Source: Natronoflexus pectinivorans (GTDB lineage Bacteria; Bacteroidota; Bacteroidia; Bacteroidales; Marinilabiliaceae). Taken from it: a stretch of 64,000 bases of DNA. How positions within the stretch are numbered: position 1 is the first letter of the stretch; the number at the start of each line of letters is the position of its first letter. This document shows positions 32,990 through 41,148 of the stretch, in pieces. The stretch is from assembly GCF_004345615.1 (NCBI RefSeq), contig NZ_SLWK01000016.1, forward strand, positions 1-64,000, given 5' to 3'. A program made the position numbers and the translations under genes. The notes beneath the pieces were generated by a model. It worked only from the letters and a program-made list of their open reading frames with translations, made no database searches and was not told the DNA's origin.

Positions 32990-33381
32990 TTTCAGCAATT
33001 ATTGTTTTGTACATTGCATTAGAGTTGACGAAAACCTAGATAAAGATTTTGATTTAACAAAAATAGACCCCATTGATATTGCACATATTGAAGTTATCAA
33101 GAATACTGAAGAAAGCAAGTTATATAATAATGAAAACAGTGGAGTTGTGAAAATCAACACAAAAGAATTTGTTCTCAGTGTACTAATGAGAATGGTTGAT
33201 TAGAAGTCCAAAGATGAGTTCGTTTTGCGTGATTATAATCAATTAAGGATTATCTTTTGTTCATCAATGAAAAGGAAGTTGACTTTGCAAAACTAATTAG
33301 CATTACGACTCCAACAATTGGGAAACAGGAAATTGTAAAATTAAAAGACGAAAAAAGTAAAATAATGATATATTTAAAGTA
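32990..33381 (+). pseudogene. remnant of a TonB-plug-like or BlaR-associated protein
   Basis: There is no start codon, but translation gives VDENLDKDFDLTKIDPIDIAHIEVIKN...SKLYNNENSGVVKINTKEF, the pattern IEVIKxxxAxxLYGxxGxGVVxIxTK seen in TonB plug-like domains appended to Bacteroidota M56/BlaR1-type peptidases. A stop follows at ~33200. After a frame shift, a related piece continues: FINEKEVDFAKLISITTPTIG...KSKIMIYLK to 33381. Two stops and one frameshift make this a decayed gene. Confidence 0.55.
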
Positions 33382-33437
33382 AATAATATTCAACCTCTTT
33401 TTGAGGCTTAAACCGATTTTAGAAATTAATGATTTGA

Positions 33438-33463
33438 ATGATTGCATAAGCAATCATTTTTTT
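33438..33463 (+). terminator. hairpin-T-run terminator
   Basis: ATGATTGC-ATAA-GCAATCAT followed by TTTTTTT. It isolates the upstream remnant from the next promoter, whose -7 box begins in the T-run. Confidence 0.65.
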
Positions 33464-33470
33464 ATCTTTG
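33442..33470 (+). promoter_or_regulatory. promoter of the first TonB receptor gene
   Basis: TTG at 33442-33444, 18 bases, TATCTTTG at 33463-33470, close to the Bacteroidota consensus. The start codon lies ~240 bases downstream, so the mRNA has a long leader. Confidence 0.6.
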
Positions 33471-33473
33471 CAT

Positions 33474-33503
33474 AGTGTTACTAAAATAAAAAAACGTAAC
33501 ACT
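33474..33503. promoter_or_regulatory. predicted NikR operator
   Basis: AGTGTTAC (33474-33481) and GTAACACT (33496-33503) form a perfect inverted repeat. Read as GTGTTA-N16-TAACAC its length and spacing equal the E. coli NikR box (GTATGA-N16-TCATAC, 28 bases). It sits immediately after the -7 box, covering the expected transcription start, a repressor position. A nikR gene is in the same locus (40750-41148). Binding is inferred. Confidence 0.55.
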
Positions 33504-33670
33504 AATTATTCTGCATATTTTATTCGGGAATTATAGAATGCGAATAAGTGAAAAGCTGGATGCACCGTCTGATTGTATGGAATTGAAAGATTTTCGATTT
33601 GTATCAGGGATATGAAACTTAGTTTGGCCTTAATCAATGAAAAATTATTCTTTTCAAAATATTGCAACGT

Positions 33671-33698
33671 TTTGGTTCCCAATTTATCGGGAACCAAA
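33671..33698 (+). promoter_or_regulatory. leader hairpin upstream of the TonB receptor gene
   Basis: TTTGGTTCCC-aatttatc-GGGAACCAAA, a perfect 10-bp stem 22 bases before the start codon. It may control translation or mRNA stability of the receptor. I do not recognise a known riboswitch in the leader. Confidence 0.5.
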
Positions 33699-33720
33699 TA
33701 CTTAAACACATTATTTTCAA

Positions 33721-36159
33721 ATGAGAAAATTAGTAAAACAACCGCTCCTTTTCATTTTAATATTACTATTCGGTTTTTTAAATGGTAATGCGCAGACCAT
33801 AAGAGGCGTGATTACGGACATCGAAACATCTGATCCTCTTCCGGGCGCTAATATTACCATAGCTGGTTCTAGAGAAGGTGTAATAAGTGATTCCGATGGA
33901 ACCTTTCTGATAAATATCGAGGATTGGAGCAATACAATTTTGAATATTACTTTTATAGGTTATCATAGTAAAGAGATTGACCTGGCTTCTCATAGTTCCG
34001 ATCATATTTTAAGTATTCAACTGTATCCCAACCACCATACACTGAGTGAAATTACCATTTCCGGAGCTATTTCGAATCCAGTAAGAAGAAATGGGGATGC
34101 TCTTTTTACCGGAACCGCACTAACCTCCAAAGGACTCAGTATTGGTGGAGCGCCCGCATCTGCCAGTGTTTATCATGCTCTGGATATTCTTCCCGGAGTT
34201 TTAACCGAAGGCATTGATGGTTATGGTTTGTCCGATAAGTCGGTGCGTATTCGGGGCATACGTAGTACTTTTAGCGGGATGACATTAGAAGGTTTTCCTA
34301 ATTACGGAATTATGCCCATTGGAGCCCGTGACGACATATACGATATGGAAAACATAGAAAGCATCGCTTTGTACAAAGGTGCATCTCCGGCAGATTTAGG
34401 AACTGCAACCGGTAGTAAGGGTGGTGCCATTGAATTGAGGTACCGCAGGCCAAATGAGGAGTTTGGAGCAGAAGTGAATCAATCAATTGGGAGTCACAAT
34501 TTTTATAGGTCATTTGCAAGGGTTGATTTGGGTAAAACTGCATTTGGAACATCGGCATTCGTCTCATTTTCGGCAACCGAGGCGGATAAATGGAAAGGCC
34601 CCGGGAAAATGGGTCCCCGATACAATGCAGTAACAGGTATTTCTCAACAATTTAATGAAAAGTTTGAGGCCGAAGTATTTGTTAATTACAATAGCATCAA
34701 ACGAAATGCTTATAGGAGGTTAAGCTATTCAGAGGCCATTAATTTGAATGAAAATTATACGAAAGATTTTTCATCAGAATTAACAGGGGTTGCGTCGCAA
34801 GATTTCAATTATTACGGTTACAATGACGGAACATTTACGAATATGGATTTTATGGGAATCGTTAGATATACTCCCGATGATAATACTTCTGTTTCGATAA
34901 AAGGATATGTATCCAATGAAGAGGCTGACTACGATGGTACAGTGCAGCGTGGACCTAATTTCTTCAAGACAACCAGCATGAGAGATATTAGCCGAATGGG
35001 AGTAATTCCTGAAATTCAGGGAAGAATGAATCAAATTTCATATTCAGCAGGGTATTGGTTGGAAATATTTGATAATGATGCGCAAGTATATAACACGCGT
35101 ATTGCTGATCAGGGATTAATTCCCGTTGGTTATGGGTTTTTCTCTGTGAATGAGAAGAAAGGGATAATTCACAGTCCGTATGCTAAATTGGCATACTCAC
35201 CGGGCAGGTTTAAACTTCAGGCCGGCTTGAAATACTTCCACTTTACAGATCCGGCAACAGAGAGGTATAATTCAGTTTCAGCCACCGAACTATCCGAATT
35301 GCCAAATGAGTCGTTATACACAAGAAAAATGACGCACCACGCATTATTGCCTTCATTTGGTATTGGATACTCTCTGAAAGATAATATGCAGTTATACATT
35401 AATTATGGAAAAAACTATATGCGCCCTTATATGTATAATCCCATTATATCGTTGTATGTGAACAATATGACTACATTTACTGATGCCGGGATGAATTTAC
35501 AGGACATTTTTGACCAGTGGAAAATGGAAACCTCACATCATTTTGATTTTGGATTTAGATATGTTTCCAATTACCTGACTTTGTCACCGTCGATCCATTA
35601 TGCCAGGCACAATAATGTGCTGGCTTCAGCATATGACTCAACTGTTGATCTGGATTATTTTCAAAACGTTGGCGAACAAACAGCCTGGGGTGTTGATACT
35701 GAGTTTTATCTACATCCGGTTTCGTGGTTCACTTTGATTCTCAACCCCACCTACACAAACATAAGCTATGATAAAAATCTGGAGCGCCAGGATGGAATAA
35801 TTGAGATAAAAGGCAACCAATCACCTGCCACCCCCCGTTTCAGCCTGAAATCTGGAGCTCTATTCTCAACGAGCAATATGGACATATCTTTAATTTACAA
35901 ACGCATTGGCAAAAGATACGGTGATGCCACCAACATCGAAAAGATTGATGCTTACGGACTTTTTGATTTCTCCATAAATTATAGTTTCGAAAACATAAGC
36001 TTCATCAGAAACATAACTGCCGGAGTTGACGTTAAGAATGTTTTTGACAAAAAACACATCGGAATTATTAACACATCGGATGACAGCCATCAGGGAAGTG
36101 CTACATATTTTGCCGGACCTCCAAGGATTGTTTCAGGAAAAATTAGTTTGAAGTTTTAA
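33721..36159 (+). CDS. TonB-dependent outer membrane receptor, predicted nickel uptake
   Basis: 812 residues. Signal peptide, then a carboxypeptidase-like beta domain (TIRGVITDIETSDPLPGANITIAGSREG), a plug domain (VYHALDILPGVLTEGIDG, RIRGIRSTF, IESIALYKGASPADLGTATGSKGGAIELRYR) and a 22-strand barrel ending in ISLKF, the normal C-terminal aromatic residue. It imports a metal complex across the outer membrane with TonB/ExbBD energy. The predicted NikR operator and the nearby NikR-ABC operon point to nickel or cobalt, as for FrpB4 of Helicobacter. That substrate is inferred from context. Confidence 0.85.
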   Translation: MRKLVKQPLLFILILLFGFLNGNAQTIRGVITDIETSDPLPGANITIAGSREGVISDSDGTFLINIEDWSNTILNITFIGYHSKEIDLASHSSDHILSIQLYPNHHTLSEITISGAISNPVRRNGDALFTGTALTSKGLSIGGAPASASVYHALDILPGVLTEGIDGYGLSDKSVRIRGIRSTFSGMTLEGFPNYGIMPIGARDDIYDMENIESIALYKGASPADLGTATGSKGGAIELRYRRPNEEFGAEVNQSIGSHNFYRSFARVDLGKTAFGTSAFVSFSATEADKWKGPGKMGPRYNAVTGISQQFNEKFEAEVFVNYNSIKRNAYRRLSYSEAINLNENYTKDFSSELTGVASQDFNYYGYNDGTFTNMDFMGIVRYTPDDNTSVSIKGYVSNEEADYDGTVQRGPNFFKTTSMRDISRMGVIPEIQGRMNQISYSAGYWLEIFDNDAQVYNTRIADQGLIPVGYGFFSVNEKKGIIHSPYAKLAYSPGRFKLQAGLKYFHFTDPATERYNSVSATELSELPNESLYTRKMTHHALLPSFGIGYSLKDNMQLYINYGKNYMRPYMYNPIISLYVNNMTTFTDAGMNLQDIFDQWKMETSHHFDFGFRYVSNYLTLSPSIHYARHNNVLASAYDSTVDLDYFQNVGEQTAWGVDTEFYLHPVSWFTLILNPTYTNISYDKNLERQDGIIEIKGNQSPATPRFSLKSGALFSTSNMDISLIYKRIGKRYGDATNIEKIDAYGLFDFSINYSFENISFIRNITAGVDVKNVFDKKHIGIINTSDDSHQGSATYFAGPPRIVSGKISLKF

Positions 36160-36232: not shown

Positions 36233-37339
36233 TCATGTGCATTTTATTCCATGGCCATCAAGAACATACTGGGAGGTTGCACTGCAGTCCAGACAAAGGT
36301 TCTCATTATTCACTTCAGTGATTCTCGATTTCATCGTGTTTTCTTTACAAACATCACAAACAATGCTTTCCATTATGGGGGCATAGGGAGGTATGCTGGT
36401 CTCTTTATCTTCAATTTTGAAAATATCGTTGAAGGGAATGGTTAAAGTTGCAAACGACGCTTTAGAAGCAGCTTTTCGGAATTCTCTTTTAATATTTTCA
36501 TCATGGTTTTGTTCAATCACCACCTGCTGGAACAGATTACTGAATTCGGGCGACTTTTGATTGATGGTTAGCCTGGAGTCGTTTTTAGCACACACTCTTA
36601 TTCCTTTGCCATTACGGGTGGTAAGCGTGAAAGCATTCTTTCCAATATCCCGAAAAATAAGAGCGTTGTTGCCAAATGAGCAGCCGGTTATGTACTGAAC
36701 GCCATCTGCAAAGCAGTTGTTGGTCTCGGTAATGGCCAGAAGGTCTTCCATCCCGTCGGAATGATTTTTAATTTGGTTCATGGCTTTAACGGCAGCTATA
36801 ACACCCATGGCTAATCCCGGACAGTAATGTCCGTGTATTTGAGCAGCACCAATGAGTAGTTTTTCCAGATTTTCTGATTTTATATCCATGATGATTTCAG
36901 CTCTGGGGTTACCCTTTAATCGTTCAACGCGGATTTTATTCTCTGATTTACTGTTTTCGTAAAAACTGTAATCGGCTGGTTTTATATCAAGAATGGGAGT
37001 CTCATTCATGGCATCAAGCCCCGTAACTGTGAGTTGATTTCCTTCTACTGAATGCAATTTTACAGTTGTTACTCCAATCCCATTTGGCCGATGCGGACTC
37101 CGACTGGCAAATACTCCTTTTATTTCTCCCGTGTAAATGGGGGTTATTAGCTTGTAGTTCTGCGAGCGGTGGAAATTAAATACAACATCAATGGCGGCCA
37201 GCTCATTTAAATTTTGCAAACCATCAGCAAATTCAGGTAAAATTTCCAGTACACTTTTCTCTTTTTTCAATACAAACCCGTCTTTAGGATCAATGATCTG
37301 ATTCTTAACGTATCCTATTGGTTGAAAATGGATATCCAT
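36233..37339 (-). CDS. TrmO-like domain fused to FmdE-like zinc protein
   Basis: 368 residues, two unrelated domains. Residues ~1-130 are a TsaA/TrmO domain: PIGYVKNQIIDPKDG, GLQNLNELAAIDVVFNFHRS, FASRSPHRPNGIGVTTVKL and GLDAMNETPILDIKPAD. TrmO uses SAM to methylate t6A37 of tRNA. Residues ~160-300 are FmdE-like: AAQIHGHYCPGLAMGVIAAVKAM (His/Cys metal site) and the ITGCSFGNNALIFRDIGKNAF core. The C-terminus is a CDVC...CLDC zinc ribbon. FmdE-like proteins are often encoded beside metal transporters and may handle metal or cofactor delivery. Here the fusion lies in the NikR locus. Confidence 0.85.
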   Translation of the reverse strand: MDIHFQPIGYVKNQIIDPKDGFVLKKEKSVLEILPEFADGLQNLNELAAIDVVFNFHRSQNYKLITPIYTGEIKGVFASRSPHRPNGIGVTTVKLHSVEGNQLTVTGLDAMNETPILDIKPADYSFYENSKSENKIRVERLKGNPRAEIIMDIKSENLEKLLIGAAQIHGHYCPGLAMGVIAAVKAMNQIKNHSDGMEDLLAITETNNCFADGVQYITGCSFGNNALIFRDIGKNAFTLTTRNGKGIRVCAKNDSRLTINQKSPEFSNLFQQVVIEQNHDENIKREFRKAASKASFATLTIPFNDIFKIEDKETSIPPYAPIMESIVCDVCKENTMKSRITEVNNENLCLDCSATSQYVLDGHGIKCT

Positions 37340-37476: not shown

Positions 37477-37869
37477 ATGTCATATTATATGGTTGTTACT
37501 TCGCTGGAACAGGTTAAGGATATCAGGAAAAAGAAACCCAAAGAGGTTTCTTTTGAGATTGTTGGGTATGATAATGATTTTAACAGCGAATGGACTCAAC
37601 GTTTCAATCATCTTCTGGCAGAATGCGGATGCAGTTCTGGTCAGCAATATATCATGTATGCCTCTCCTCTTTATCTTTTGGCGATAATTGCTATGGCATC
37701 GTTCACATCAATTGGTAAACCATTAATTGTTGGTTTATTTCTTGGTGCCATTGTTGTTACCGGCGCTACCGGTAAAATTGCAGGTCTTATTGAAAAAAAC
37801 AACAAACTTAAAGCTCTTACCGGAGAGTTGTATTCAGTTACCGGTTATATAGACTCATCAAATGGGTAG
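37477..37869 (+). CDS. small two-helix membrane protein in the NikR locus
   Basis: 130 residues: a soluble N-terminal ~60 residues with a CGCSSGQ motif, then two membrane helices (YLLAIIAMASFTSIGKPLIVG and FLGAIVVTGATGKIAGLI) and a short tail. Divergent from TrmO-FmdE, and overlapping by 12 bases at its 3' end with the convergent ABC ATPase gene. I do not recognise the family. The two cysteines could bind metal, but this is speculative. Confidence 0.6.
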   Translation: MSYYMVVTSLEQVKDIRKKKPKEVSFEIVGYDNDFNSEWTQRFNHLLAECGCSSGQQYIMYASPLYLLAIIAMASFTSIGKPLIVGLFLGAIVVTGATGKIAGLIEKNNKLKALTGELYSVTGYIDSSNG

Positions 37870-38613
37870 GATATAGGTCTGGCTACCATGTGATATTTTC
37901 TGAACTTCTGTTTCGTACAAGGTTTTTATGTTCTCTTCGTTGATGACCTCTTTCCCCCCGTGGGCAATAATGTGCCCTTTTTTCATAAGAAAAAAATTGC
38001 TTGCATACCTGGTTGCCAGATTTAAATCGTGAATGACCGTTACAATGGTTATTTTTTTATTTTCTGAGACCTGTTTTAGTAATTGCATCACTTCAATCTG
38101 GTATTTCAAATCGAGGCTTGAGGTGGGTTCATCCAGCAACAGCACAGAAGGTTCCTGTGCCAAAGCGCGAGCAATTTGAACGCGCTGAAGTTCTCCTCCG
38201 CTGATTTCATCAATGTTGCGCATGGTTAGATCTGAAAGTCCCAACTCATCAATAATCCGGTAAACCAATTTTCTGTCCTTATTTCCGGGGAGCCATCCCA
38301 CATGTGGCCTACGGCCAAGCATTACCGTACTGAAAACATCCAATGGAAAAATTATTTTAGATGTCTGAGCCACGTAAGCCACCTTCTTTGCCAGATCTAT
38401 TTTACGGATTTTATTTATGGAAACCCCATCTAACTCAATCGTCCCGGTATGTGGGTGGAGAATGTTGTCCAAACATTTAATAAGAGTGCTTTTCCCGCAT
38501 CCATTAGGTCCCACAATGGCATAAAATCCTCCGGATTTTAAGTCTCCTGAAACGCCGTGCAGGACATCCTGATTTCCGTATGCAAATTTTATGTTTTGAA
38601 ATGATATGGTCAT
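37858..38613 (-). CDS. ABC transporter ATPase, FecE/BtuD-like
   Basis: 252 residues. Walker A GPNGCGKST, Q-loop VAQTSK, signature SGGELQRVQIARALAQEP, Walker B VLLLDEPTSSLD and H-loop VIHDLNLA. Type II importer ATPase of the siderophore/cobalamin/metal class. An 18-codon upstream extension exists, but the ATG at 38613 follows the permease stop by one base, so I take it as the start. Last gene of the nikR-SBP-permease-ATPase operon. Confidence 0.9.
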   Translation of the reverse strand: MTISFQNIKFAYGNQDVLHGVSGDLKSGGFYAIVGPNGCGKSTLIKCLDNILHPHTGTIELDGVSINKIRKIDLAKKVAYVAQTSKIIFPLDVFSTVMLGRRPHVGWLPGNKDRKLVYRIIDELGLSDLTMRNIDEISGGELQRVQIARALAQEPSVLLLDEPTSSLDLKYQIEVMQLLKQVSENKKITIVTVIHDLNLATRYASNFFLMKKGHIIAHGGKEVINEENIKTLYETEVQKISHGSQTYILPI

Positions 38614-38614
38614 C

Positions 38615-39655
38615 CTATCTTTTTTTGATGCGGTTAAACAACAGGTAAAGGAAAAATGGTGCACCAATAAAGGAGGTGATAATTCCCACGGGAATTACCA
38701 CAGGAGCAACAATGGTACGAGCCACAATGTCGCTGGCAAGGAGAAAAAGTGCGCCAAAAATGGCCGATCCGGTTATGACGTAAGTTTCATTAAAACCCAC
38801 CAACCTGCGGGTTACATGAGGAATTATCAACCCCACAAACGCAATAACCCCGAAAAAGGCAACGGTAACAGCCGTGCAAAGCGAGGCTGTAAGAACGGTT
38901 ATCATCCTTAATCTGTTCACATTGATTCCAAGACTGGCAGCCACTTCATCGCCGGCATTAAGGGAACTTAAGTTGAACGTATTGTATATAAAATATGCCA
39001 TGGAGGGAATGATCACGATGAGCAGAAACATGGTATTTTGATTGGTTGCCTTACCTAAATCTCCAAACATCCATGAAACAATGGCGGCAAGTTCCACATC
39101 GCTGGAGATATATTGCATCAGTGAAGTGGCGGAGCCAAAAAGTGCCGATAGAATTATTCCTGCCATTATGAGGGTTTCCGGGGTGGCTCCGCGCCATCGT
39201 GCAAAACCTGTAATGAGAAAAGTACAGGCCATTCCCCAAATAAAAGCCGATAACGTAATCAGATACGGACTGTTTTTCAATGATTGCGCGATTCCATGTT
39301 GTGCTGCGTAACCTAAAAGAACAATGGCCAATGCTGCACCAAACATAGATGCTGCACTTAATCCAAGTGTGTATGGTGATCCGAGGGGGTTGCGAATGAC
39401 TGTCTGAATAACCGCTCCCGATACCGAAAGAGCAACTCCTGACAGTATGGCAGCCAATACCCGCGGCCATCTGATGTGAAATAGAATTTGTCTGCTTACA
39501 TCATCTCCTTTTCCAAGGAGAAGCTCCGGGATGTTTAATATGGTGAGGTTAGAGCTTCCAATGGCCAAACCTGCAACTGACAATAGCAACAGGGCAACAA
39601 GACCTGTTGCCAAGATAATTATCCGATTTTGTTTTTGTCTTTTTATTGCATGCAT
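38615..39655 (-). CDS. FecCD-family ABC permease
   Basis: 346 residues, about ten membrane helices. Hallmarks of FecCD/BtuC: RWPRVLAAILSGVALSVSGAVIQTVIRNPLGSPYTLGLSAASMFGAALAI and FVGLIIPHVTRRLVGFNETYVITGSAIFGALFLLASDIVART (the coupling-helix region). It forms the channel for import of a metal chelate or cobalamin from the periplasm. Its start overlaps the end of the binding protein gene by 13 bases, and the ATPase gene starts one base after its stop. Confidence 0.92.
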   Translation of the reverse strand: MHAIKRQKQNRIIILATGLVALLLLSVAGLAIGSSNLTILNIPELLLGKGDDVSRQILFHIRWPRVLAAILSGVALSVSGAVIQTVIRNPLGSPYTLGLSAASMFGAALAIVLLGYAAQHGIAQSLKNSPYLITLSAFIWGMACTFLITGFARWRGATPETLIMAGIILSALFGSATSLMQYISSDVELAAIVSWMFGDLGKATNQNTMFLLIVIIPSMAYFIYNTFNLSSLNAGDEVAASLGINVNRLRMITVLTASLCTAVTVAFFGVIAFVGLIIPHVTRRLVGFNETYVITGSAIFGALFLLASDIVARTIVAPVVIPVGIITSFIGAPFFLYLLFNRIKKR

Positions 39656-40725
39656 GTCCAGCCGTTGTACATTTTTATCAACTCTTCACTTACATCGTTT
39701 CCAAGCATATACTCATAAATGGAAGTGCTTTTTTCTTTAAACATTAGCGGAGTTACTGCATCCGGATATAGTATTGAAGCAACATACCATGCGTTGGTCA
39801 GAACTGTTTCGAAATTTGTGGAATACCAGTTGTGTGGCATAAGAAAATGAACCTTATTATTCTGAACGGCTTGAAGAGTTGCTTGCAGAGGTGTTCCATT
39901 GGCAATTTGAGGCAGAACCAATTCTCGTCCTGCTGCGTCAACAAAAATCCTGTCGGGATTCCAGGTTATAAGTTGTTCTATGTCAATTTCAACAGTAGAG
40001 CCAATAGTCAGAGGCAAGTTGCTTCTTTGAGCCAATTCAGCAGCTACGTTTTCAGCATTTACAAATATAAATACATCAAAAAGCGGTATGGTGGAAGTGA
40101 TGGAGCGTGAGCCGCTGTAGGATATGCCACCGGCATAGACCGTTTCATTTTTTTTGTGGGTTTTGGCTGACACCTTGTTTAGTTCTGCAATTTGATTATC
40201 AATAAAATGTATAACGGAATCGGCTCTGGACTCTGTGCCTGTTACAGTGCCAATGGTTTTAAGCGATTTGTTAAAATCGCTTCTTTGGTTTGTTAAGTTA
40301 CCGGGTTTAATTACAACAACCGGAATTCCCGTTCTTCGTTGAAGGTCATTGGCTTCTCCAATGGTGGCGTTGGTCATAAATATTACATCCGGGGCATTGA
40401 TGGCTATCAATTCAGCATCGCCTCCATGCATTGGTCCTATTATTGGTTTTTCAGTAAGTTGTGGTTGTGCAAATGCATAAGCACGTCCCGGCCGGCGTTC
40501 AATATCTTCAACTCCGGATATTTTTTCGGTTAGTCCCATATAAACCAACATTCGTAAAGCTCCGGATTTTAGGCCAACGATGCTCTCAATATTAACAGGG
40601 ATTGTAACTTTTCGGTCTGCCATATCGGTTATGGTAACCGTTTCCTGAGCTATGCGCGATTGGGGATTCCCACAACCCACAATAAGGACGAATAGAATTG
40701 ATAGTATCTGTTTGGCGTTGATCAT
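39643..40725 (-). CDS. periplasmic binding lipoprotein, metal-chelate ABC transporter
   Basis: 360 residues. Lipoprotein signal ILSILFVLIVGC (lipobox VGC). The class III binding-protein fold shows VTITDMADRKVTIPVNIESIVGL, GPMHGGDAELIAINAPDVIFMTN, IPVVVIKPG and ITWNPDRIFVDAAG. The GP-x-HGGDAELI segment resembles a distinct group of binding proteins associated with FmdE genes in archaea and anaerobes, which fits the TrmO-FmdE neighbour. Ligand unknown; nickel or cobalt is favoured by nikR. Confidence 0.87.
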   Translation of the reverse strand: MINAKQILSILFVLIVGCGNPQSRIAQETVTITDMADRKVTIPVNIESIVGLKSGALRMLVYMGLTEKISGVEDIERRPGRAYAFAQPQLTEKPIIGPMHGGDAELIAINAPDVIFMTNATIGEANDLQRRTGIPVVVIKPGNLTNQRSDFNKSLKTIGTVTGTESRADSVIHFIDNQIAELNKVSAKTHKKNETVYAGGISYSGSRSITSTIPLFDVFIFVNAENVAAELAQRSNLPLTIGSTVEIDIEQLITWNPDRIFVDAAGRELVLPQIANGTPLQATLQAVQNNKVHFLMPHNWYSTNFETVLTNAWYVASILYPDAVTPLMFKEKSTSIYEYMLGNDVSEELIKMYNGWTCMQ

Positions 40726-40749: not shown

Positions 40750-41148
40750 TCAGGCTCTGCTCATGGTCAGTTTACCATGCTGAATCCCTTTTATGGCAAT
40801 CAGTTTGTCCGACAGCTCGGTTAATAGCTTTGCTTCTCCTTTTACGGCAATAATCTCCATGCAAATGTCGTGGTTCAGGTGAAAGTGCTGCGAAGAGAGT
40901 ATTTCATGGTGATAATGGTGCTGAATGTCATGAAGTTTATGAACCAACTCCCGTTTGTGGTGGTCGTAAATTAACGTTATGGAGCCAACCACAATATTAT
41001 TGCACTCCCATTTGGAACGTGCAGTATTCTCAGCAATCAGTTGTCTGATGGCTTGTGAGCGATTGGTGAATCGGTTCTTTTTTACAAATTCATCCAAGTC
41101 GTCTAATAACTCCTTTTCAAGGGATACCCCAAAACGAACTACACTCAT
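40750..41148 (-). CDS. nikR: nickel-responsive regulator NikR
   Basis: 132 residues. An N-terminal ribbon-helix-helix (VVRFGVSLEKELLDDLDEFVKKN, TNRSQAIRQLI) binds DNA; a C-terminal ACT-like domain binds nickel. The four high-affinity ligands align with E. coli H76, H87, H89 and C95 as His77, His88, His90 and Cys96 (QHHYHHEILSSQHFHLNHDICMEI). First gene of the transporter operon, 24 bases before the binding protein. It should repress metal uptake when nickel is sufficient. A GTGTTA half-site-like word occurs in its own upstream region near 41172. Confidence 0.93.
   Translation of the reverse strand: MSVVRFGVSLEKELLDDLDEFVKKNRFTNRSQAIRQLIAENTARSKWECNNIVVGSITLIYDHHKRELVHKLHDIQHHYHHEILSSQHFHLNHDICMEIIAVKGEAKLLTELSDKLIAIKGIQHGKLTMSRA

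Follow-up and report, generated by a model that had tools for sequence, protein, structure and literature searches.

NikR-controlled nickel uptake in other bacteria

The NikR consensus of delta-proteobacteria, GTGTTAC-[N13/14]-GTAACAC, is known from Geobacter and Desulfovibrio (PMC545781). Its targets in this group are nikMNQO/nikK and an Fe-hydrogenase, whereas the locus described here comprises a TonB receptor and a FecCD-type ABC transporter, with larECB genes in relatives. The nikABCDE box of E. coli, GTATGAT-[N13/14]-ATCATAC (PMC545781), is likewise an inverted repeat of 28 bp and shares the spacing, but its half-site differs. The Helicobacter pylori NikR regulon (FecA3, FrpB4, fecDE; PMC5385501 and references therein) includes nickel-dependent repression of TonB receptors, which is also predicted here. 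As in the present locus, it involves fecDE-type ABC genes and half-sites that are two helical turns apart and contain a related TRWYA core. The DNA-contact residues differ, however, the H. pylori boxes are less conserved, and NikR of that species is linked to urease and hydrogenase. In Caldithrix abyssi, which belongs to another phylum, a common NikR-like motif was predicted from the sequence to precede nikR as well as the genes of TonB receptors and nickel transporters (PMC5317091). The transporters there are of the cbi/nikMNOQ rather than the FecCD type. The motif (delta-proteobacteria) and NikR-controlled TonB receptors (Helicobacter, and predicted for Caldithrix) are already known, and the nickel network across Bacteroidota is little described. 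A text search of open-licence papers found no description of a NikR-TonB receptor system in this phylum.

The window analyzed, a stretch of 64,000 nucleotides of Natronoflexus pectinivorans (contig NZ_SLWK01000016.1, positions 1 to 64,000), harbors the following features:

33437..33458, + strand: perfect palindrome AATGATTGC-ATAA-GCAATCATT (N4 centre) followed by a T run; kept in Alkalitalea saponilacus with a changed centre
33463..33470, + strand: Bacteroidota-type -7 element TATCTTTG (TAnnTTTG); kept in A. saponilacus
33475..33502, + strand: predicted NikR operator of the TonB receptor, perfect inverted repeat GTGTTAC-N14-GTAACAC
33503..33720, + strand: leader between box and receptor start, 218 nt, single copy, no Rfam family
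33721..36159, + strand: outer-membrane TonB-dependent receptor of the siderophore type with an N-terminal CarboxypepD_reg domain; gene predicted to be regulated
36233..37339, - strand: TrmO_N-FmdE fusion protein, belonging to the linked genes; in L012 these are followed by a TrmO-domain gene
37858..38667, - strand: ABC transporter ATPase, FecE/HmuV/BtuD type
38615..39655, - strand: ABC permease, FecCD/BtuC type
39643..40725, - strand: periplasmic substrate-binding protein (Peripla_BP_2)
40750..41148, - strand: nikR; DNA-contacting strand RFGVSL, ligands H77, H88, H90 and C96
41150..41177, - strand: predicted NikR operator of nikR itself, the second in the window, a direct repeat (ATAACAC-N14-GTGCCAC) located 1 bp upstream of the ATG

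The receptor promoter and the nikR locus

The receptor box reads GTGTTACTAAAATAAAAAAACGTAACAC and consists of two perfect 7-bp arms separated by a 14-bp spacer. The first-pass annotation had placed GTGTTA-N16-TAACAC on the receptor promoter, and this motif is present at 33475-33502 with no mismatch and can be extended to the 7-bp arms. All 14 bases of the half-sites GTGTTAC and GTAACAC are matched, and the N14 spacing lies within the N13/N14 rule. With up to three mismatches, 1.6 matches are expected by chance according to dinucleotide shuffles of the window; the exact 14-base arm match occurs once in the window and nowhere else in the 4.47-Mb genome. No other exact match to the pattern GTRWYAC-N14-GTRWYAC was found in the genome, and the 29 matches obtained with one mismatch allowed show no excess over the 42 of a reversed-pattern control. 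A second exact GTGTTA-N16-TAACAC (C1:818305) was discarded, as its arms lack the outer C/G and it overlaps an open frame. The E. coli-type half-site GTATGA(T) is absent from the receptor box, where GTGTTAC takes its place. The earlier view that this defines a new NikR box variant does not hold, since the box is identical to the delta-proteobacterial consensus of 2004 (PMC545781).

The receptor box starts 4 bp downstream of the -7 element TATCTTTG. The consensus of this element in Bacteroidota is TAnnTTTG. Transcription is therefore expected to start in or just before the first arm of the box, in agreement with the overlap noted in the first-pass annotation. A close relative of the window genome, A. 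saponilacus (Marinilabiliaceae), harbors a syntenic cluster encoding a NikR and a receptor that are 98% and 91% identical, respectively. The two promoters have identical arms (14 of 14 bases), whereas their spacers agree at only 5 of 14 positions (counted by eye). The distance from the box to the receptor ATG (33721) is 218 bp in the window versus 28 bp in A. saponilacus, which makes the leader at 33503-33720 about 190 nt longer than its counterpart. A riboswitch in this leader was rejected, because no Rfam match reached the gathering score and the others were at chance level, and so was a mobile insert, the leader being single-copy in the genome. A hairpin, GGTTCCC/GGGAACC, is located near its 3' end. 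No plasmid relatives of the receptor promoter were found. The palindrome at 33437-33458, just upstream of the -7 element, could serve as an intrinsic terminator for transcription coming from upstream or as a second operator. Further upstream, a short frame (33051-33200) reads DLTKIDPIDIAHIEVIKNTEESKLYNNENSGVVKINTKEF, similar to the terminal part of a TonB plug domain; no full gene surrounds it, and it appears to be a relic of coding sequence.

The NikR protein contains the RHH_1 and NikR_C domains, and its four nickel-binding residues correspond in the alignment to the ligands of the E. coli protein. It is encoded by the only nikR gene of the genome, which lies within the window at a distance of 7.2-7.6 kb from the receptor box; the nikR with four nickel ligands about 7 kb away had thus been correctly recognized before. 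Its DNA-contact strand reads RFGVSL versus RVTITL in E. coli NikR, which is consistent with an altered half-site. For NikR of Geobacter uraniireducens, Benanti and Chivers (2010) reportedly described Arg-Gly-Ser as the signature of DNA contact, which RFGVSL shares, together with an unusual mode of binding. The box on nikR itself, absent from the first-pass annotation, has three mismatches and is too weak to stand out alone. At the equivalent position A. saponilacus harbors ATAACAC-N14-GTAACAC, with a single mismatch. Through the box on the window nikR, the ABC uptake genes would be regulated together with the receptor.

A metagenome-assembled genome labelled Balneolales (L012) contains the genes for NikR, a TonB receptor, a substrate-binding protein, a permease, an ATPase and a TrmO-domain protein in this order and in one direction. 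The receptor and the ABC genes are therefore tied to nikR independently of the window. The TrmO_N-FmdE fusion protein (36233-37339) is possibly a metal-handling protein. Between its gene and that of the ATPase, a 130-aa open reading frame (37477-37869) lies on the opposite strand; it is 88% identical in A. saponilacus and has no match in Pfam or NCBIfam.

Half-sites on nikR and TonB receptor promoters of relatives

Promoters of nikR were collected from 40 loci identified by protein search, 30 identified by an order-wide family search, and the window, which yielded 64 distinct promoters. These were scanned for GTGTTAC/GTAACAC in any order with at most two mismatches in 14, at spacings of 5-25 and no more than 60 nt from the ATG. 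Half-sites at N13/N14 were detected on 46 of the 64, a fraction that overstates the number of events because related promoters are not independent, although the sites still span many families. N14 accounted for 34 and N13 for 13, and every other spacing occurred on at most two promoters. In 100 dinucleotide shuffles the mean was 0.11 and the maximum two promoters, versus the 46 observed. In nearly all cases the site ends 0-2 nt upstream of the nikR start codon and occupies the stretch that separates it from the -7 element. The motif is thus conserved near other nikR-linked genes, an expectation on which the first-pass annotation had staked its reading. On the remaining 18 promoters no box was found at up to two mismatches, for example in Mangrovibacterium (L022, L029), where nikR autoregulation may have been lost. 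The genes downstream of nikR are different in these two loci.

The exact box was searched for in 393 genomes of the order that had been scored for the presence of nikR (96 with, a few of these by weak NikR_C-only matches, and 297 without). It was found in 6 of the 96 nikR-bearing and in 4 of the 297 nikR-free genomes (Fisher one-sided p=0.016). The nikR-positive matches are all located directly upstream of a TonB receptor (G000, G001, G065, G328) or of nikR (G061, G276), whereas three of the nikR-negative ones fall into coding sequence and one is intergenic (6/6 versus 0/4 at such promoters, p=0.005). A search of related genomes for the box upstream of TonB receptors, as suggested by the first-pass annotation, hence yields four genomes from three families. 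In two of them (G065, G328) nikR is on another contig, and the receptors share 37-63% identity with receptors encoded directly behind nikR elsewhere; these two cases speak for a trans-acting NikR and a conserved family of target receptors. The window receptor falls into a different family and, with about 25% identity over part of its length, is no ortholog of these common nikR-linked receptors. Since most of the comparative sites are nikR promoters, the receptor regulon is represented by fewer independent cases.

The order of the half-sites varies, while their spacing is constant at N13 or N14. On nikR promoters the direct order is the commonest and the inverted order second, and the everted order is rare. 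Different orders also coexist within single genomes: A. saponilacus combines an inverted box on the receptor with a direct box on nikR, and G065 an inverted box on the receptor with an exact everted box on nikR. The genes following nikR in G065 look like cbi/nikMNQO, judged by sequence reading only. The near-palindromic frame GTRWYAC common to the half-sites may be the reason for this free order. The everted order is already reported for Desulfotalea in PMC545781. The direct order does not appear in the table of that paper, and no earlier report of it was found in the open-licence literature.

Predicted nickel control and the demand behind it

The box at 33475-33502 is very probably a NikR operator, through which nickel-loaded NikR would repress the receptor and, via the weaker box, the nikR-ABC operon. 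Points against this reading are the 218 bp to the receptor ATG, the three mismatches of the nikR box, the 18 nikR promoters on which no box was found, the place of the window receptor outside the common nikR-linked family, and the smaller number of independent receptor cases. From the box sequence, its conservation, the link to nikR and the gene content we infer nickel-dependent binding, repression, and nickel or a nickel-chelate as cargo. A Ni-loaded NikR tetramer, with its two ribbon-helix-helix dimers two helical turns apart, would bind both GTGTTAC half-sites. These are predicted to span the start site, located shortly behind the -7 element of the receptor promoter, and NikR bound to this region would block initiation or promoter clearance. 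Under sufficient nickel, the outer-membrane import of nickel, probably as a nickel-chelate, would be shut off. The second box would mediate repression of the nikR-SBP-FecCD-FecE uptake operon. With boxes on both the receptor and the nikR operon, import across the outer and the inner membrane would respond together.

It is very unlikely that the box is instead the operator of another metal regulator such as Fur or Zur on a siderophore-type receptor, with nikR nearby by coincidence. The profiles do type the receptor and ABC genes as iron-siderophore/B12-like, and the second palindrome at 33437-33458 would fit such a regulator. Fur and Zur boxes are contiguous, however, unlike the spaced arms of the receptor box. 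Moreover, its half-site is found on nikR promoters of many families and equals the published NikR signal (PMC545781), and arms two helical turns apart suit a NikR tetramer (PMC5385501). A chance palindrome near a promoter, without any regulator, would agree with the single copy of the box in the genome, and exact matches by chance do occur, as seen in 4 of the 297 nikR-free genomes. This explanation is highly improbable in view of the unchanged arms around a changed spacer in A. saponilacus, the N13/N14 half-sites on 46 of 64 nikR promoters, and the fact that every one of the six exact matches from nikR-bearing genomes maps to a promoter of nikR or of a TonB receptor.

The least probable alternative, to which we give hardly any weight, accepts NikR as the binding protein but assumes that it mainly activates the receptor. 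Helicobacter NikR can activate as well as repress (PMC9860126). The receptor box, though, follows the -7 element and overlaps the expected start, which is a repressing position, and in relatives the box takes up the space from the -7 element to the ATG. Repression by NikR at the receptor promoter remains the favored reading.

A link to hydrogenase genes, which the first-pass annotation had proposed to look for, is not borne out here, since neither a [NiFe]-hydrogenase large subunit nor urease was found in the genome by family search. This also sets the organism apart from H. pylori. One prismane-family protein is present, which may be a hybrid-cluster protein or a CO dehydrogenase. As nickel user, the genome encodes a predicted Lar-type enzyme:

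L102:6037-7311: nickel-dependent putative hexonate epimerase (NF052594), far above the cut-off

Its gene is part of a cluster for the catabolism of sugar acids, which also contains a TRAP-type transporter. Neighboring larB- and larC-like genes are present in the genome as well (L109). No NikR box with up to two mismatches was detected near either of these loci. In relatives, nikR is often the first gene of a larE-larC-larB operon. Such loci in Prolixibacteraceae also contain a membrane protein labelled NicO/UreH-like from the look of its sequence alone (L036:10456-13923, L016, L048, L050). The nickel-pincer cofactor genes of this family are thus apparently under NikR control. Together, the Lar-type epimerase and larB/larC in N. 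pectinivorans and nikR-larECB in relatives indicate that the nickel demand is likely that for the nickel-pincer cofactor.

We consider it rather probable, if less firmly than the operator itself, that one Bacteroidota NikR reads inverted, direct and everted half-sites at N13/N14, even within one genome, and that the regulon has Lar enzymes and TonB import at its core, not hydrogenase or urease. The variable order of the half-sites and the connection to Lar enzymes are what merits a specialist's attention. A fixed spacing combined with a free half-site order would provide a sharp test of how DNA is read by the flexible NikR tetramer. A NikR signature for Bacteroidota would allow unannotated TonB receptors, FecCD-type ABC transporters and NicO/UreH-like permeases to be assigned to nickel, and nickel-pincer enzymes are indicated as the nickel users behind many NikR regulons of this phylum.
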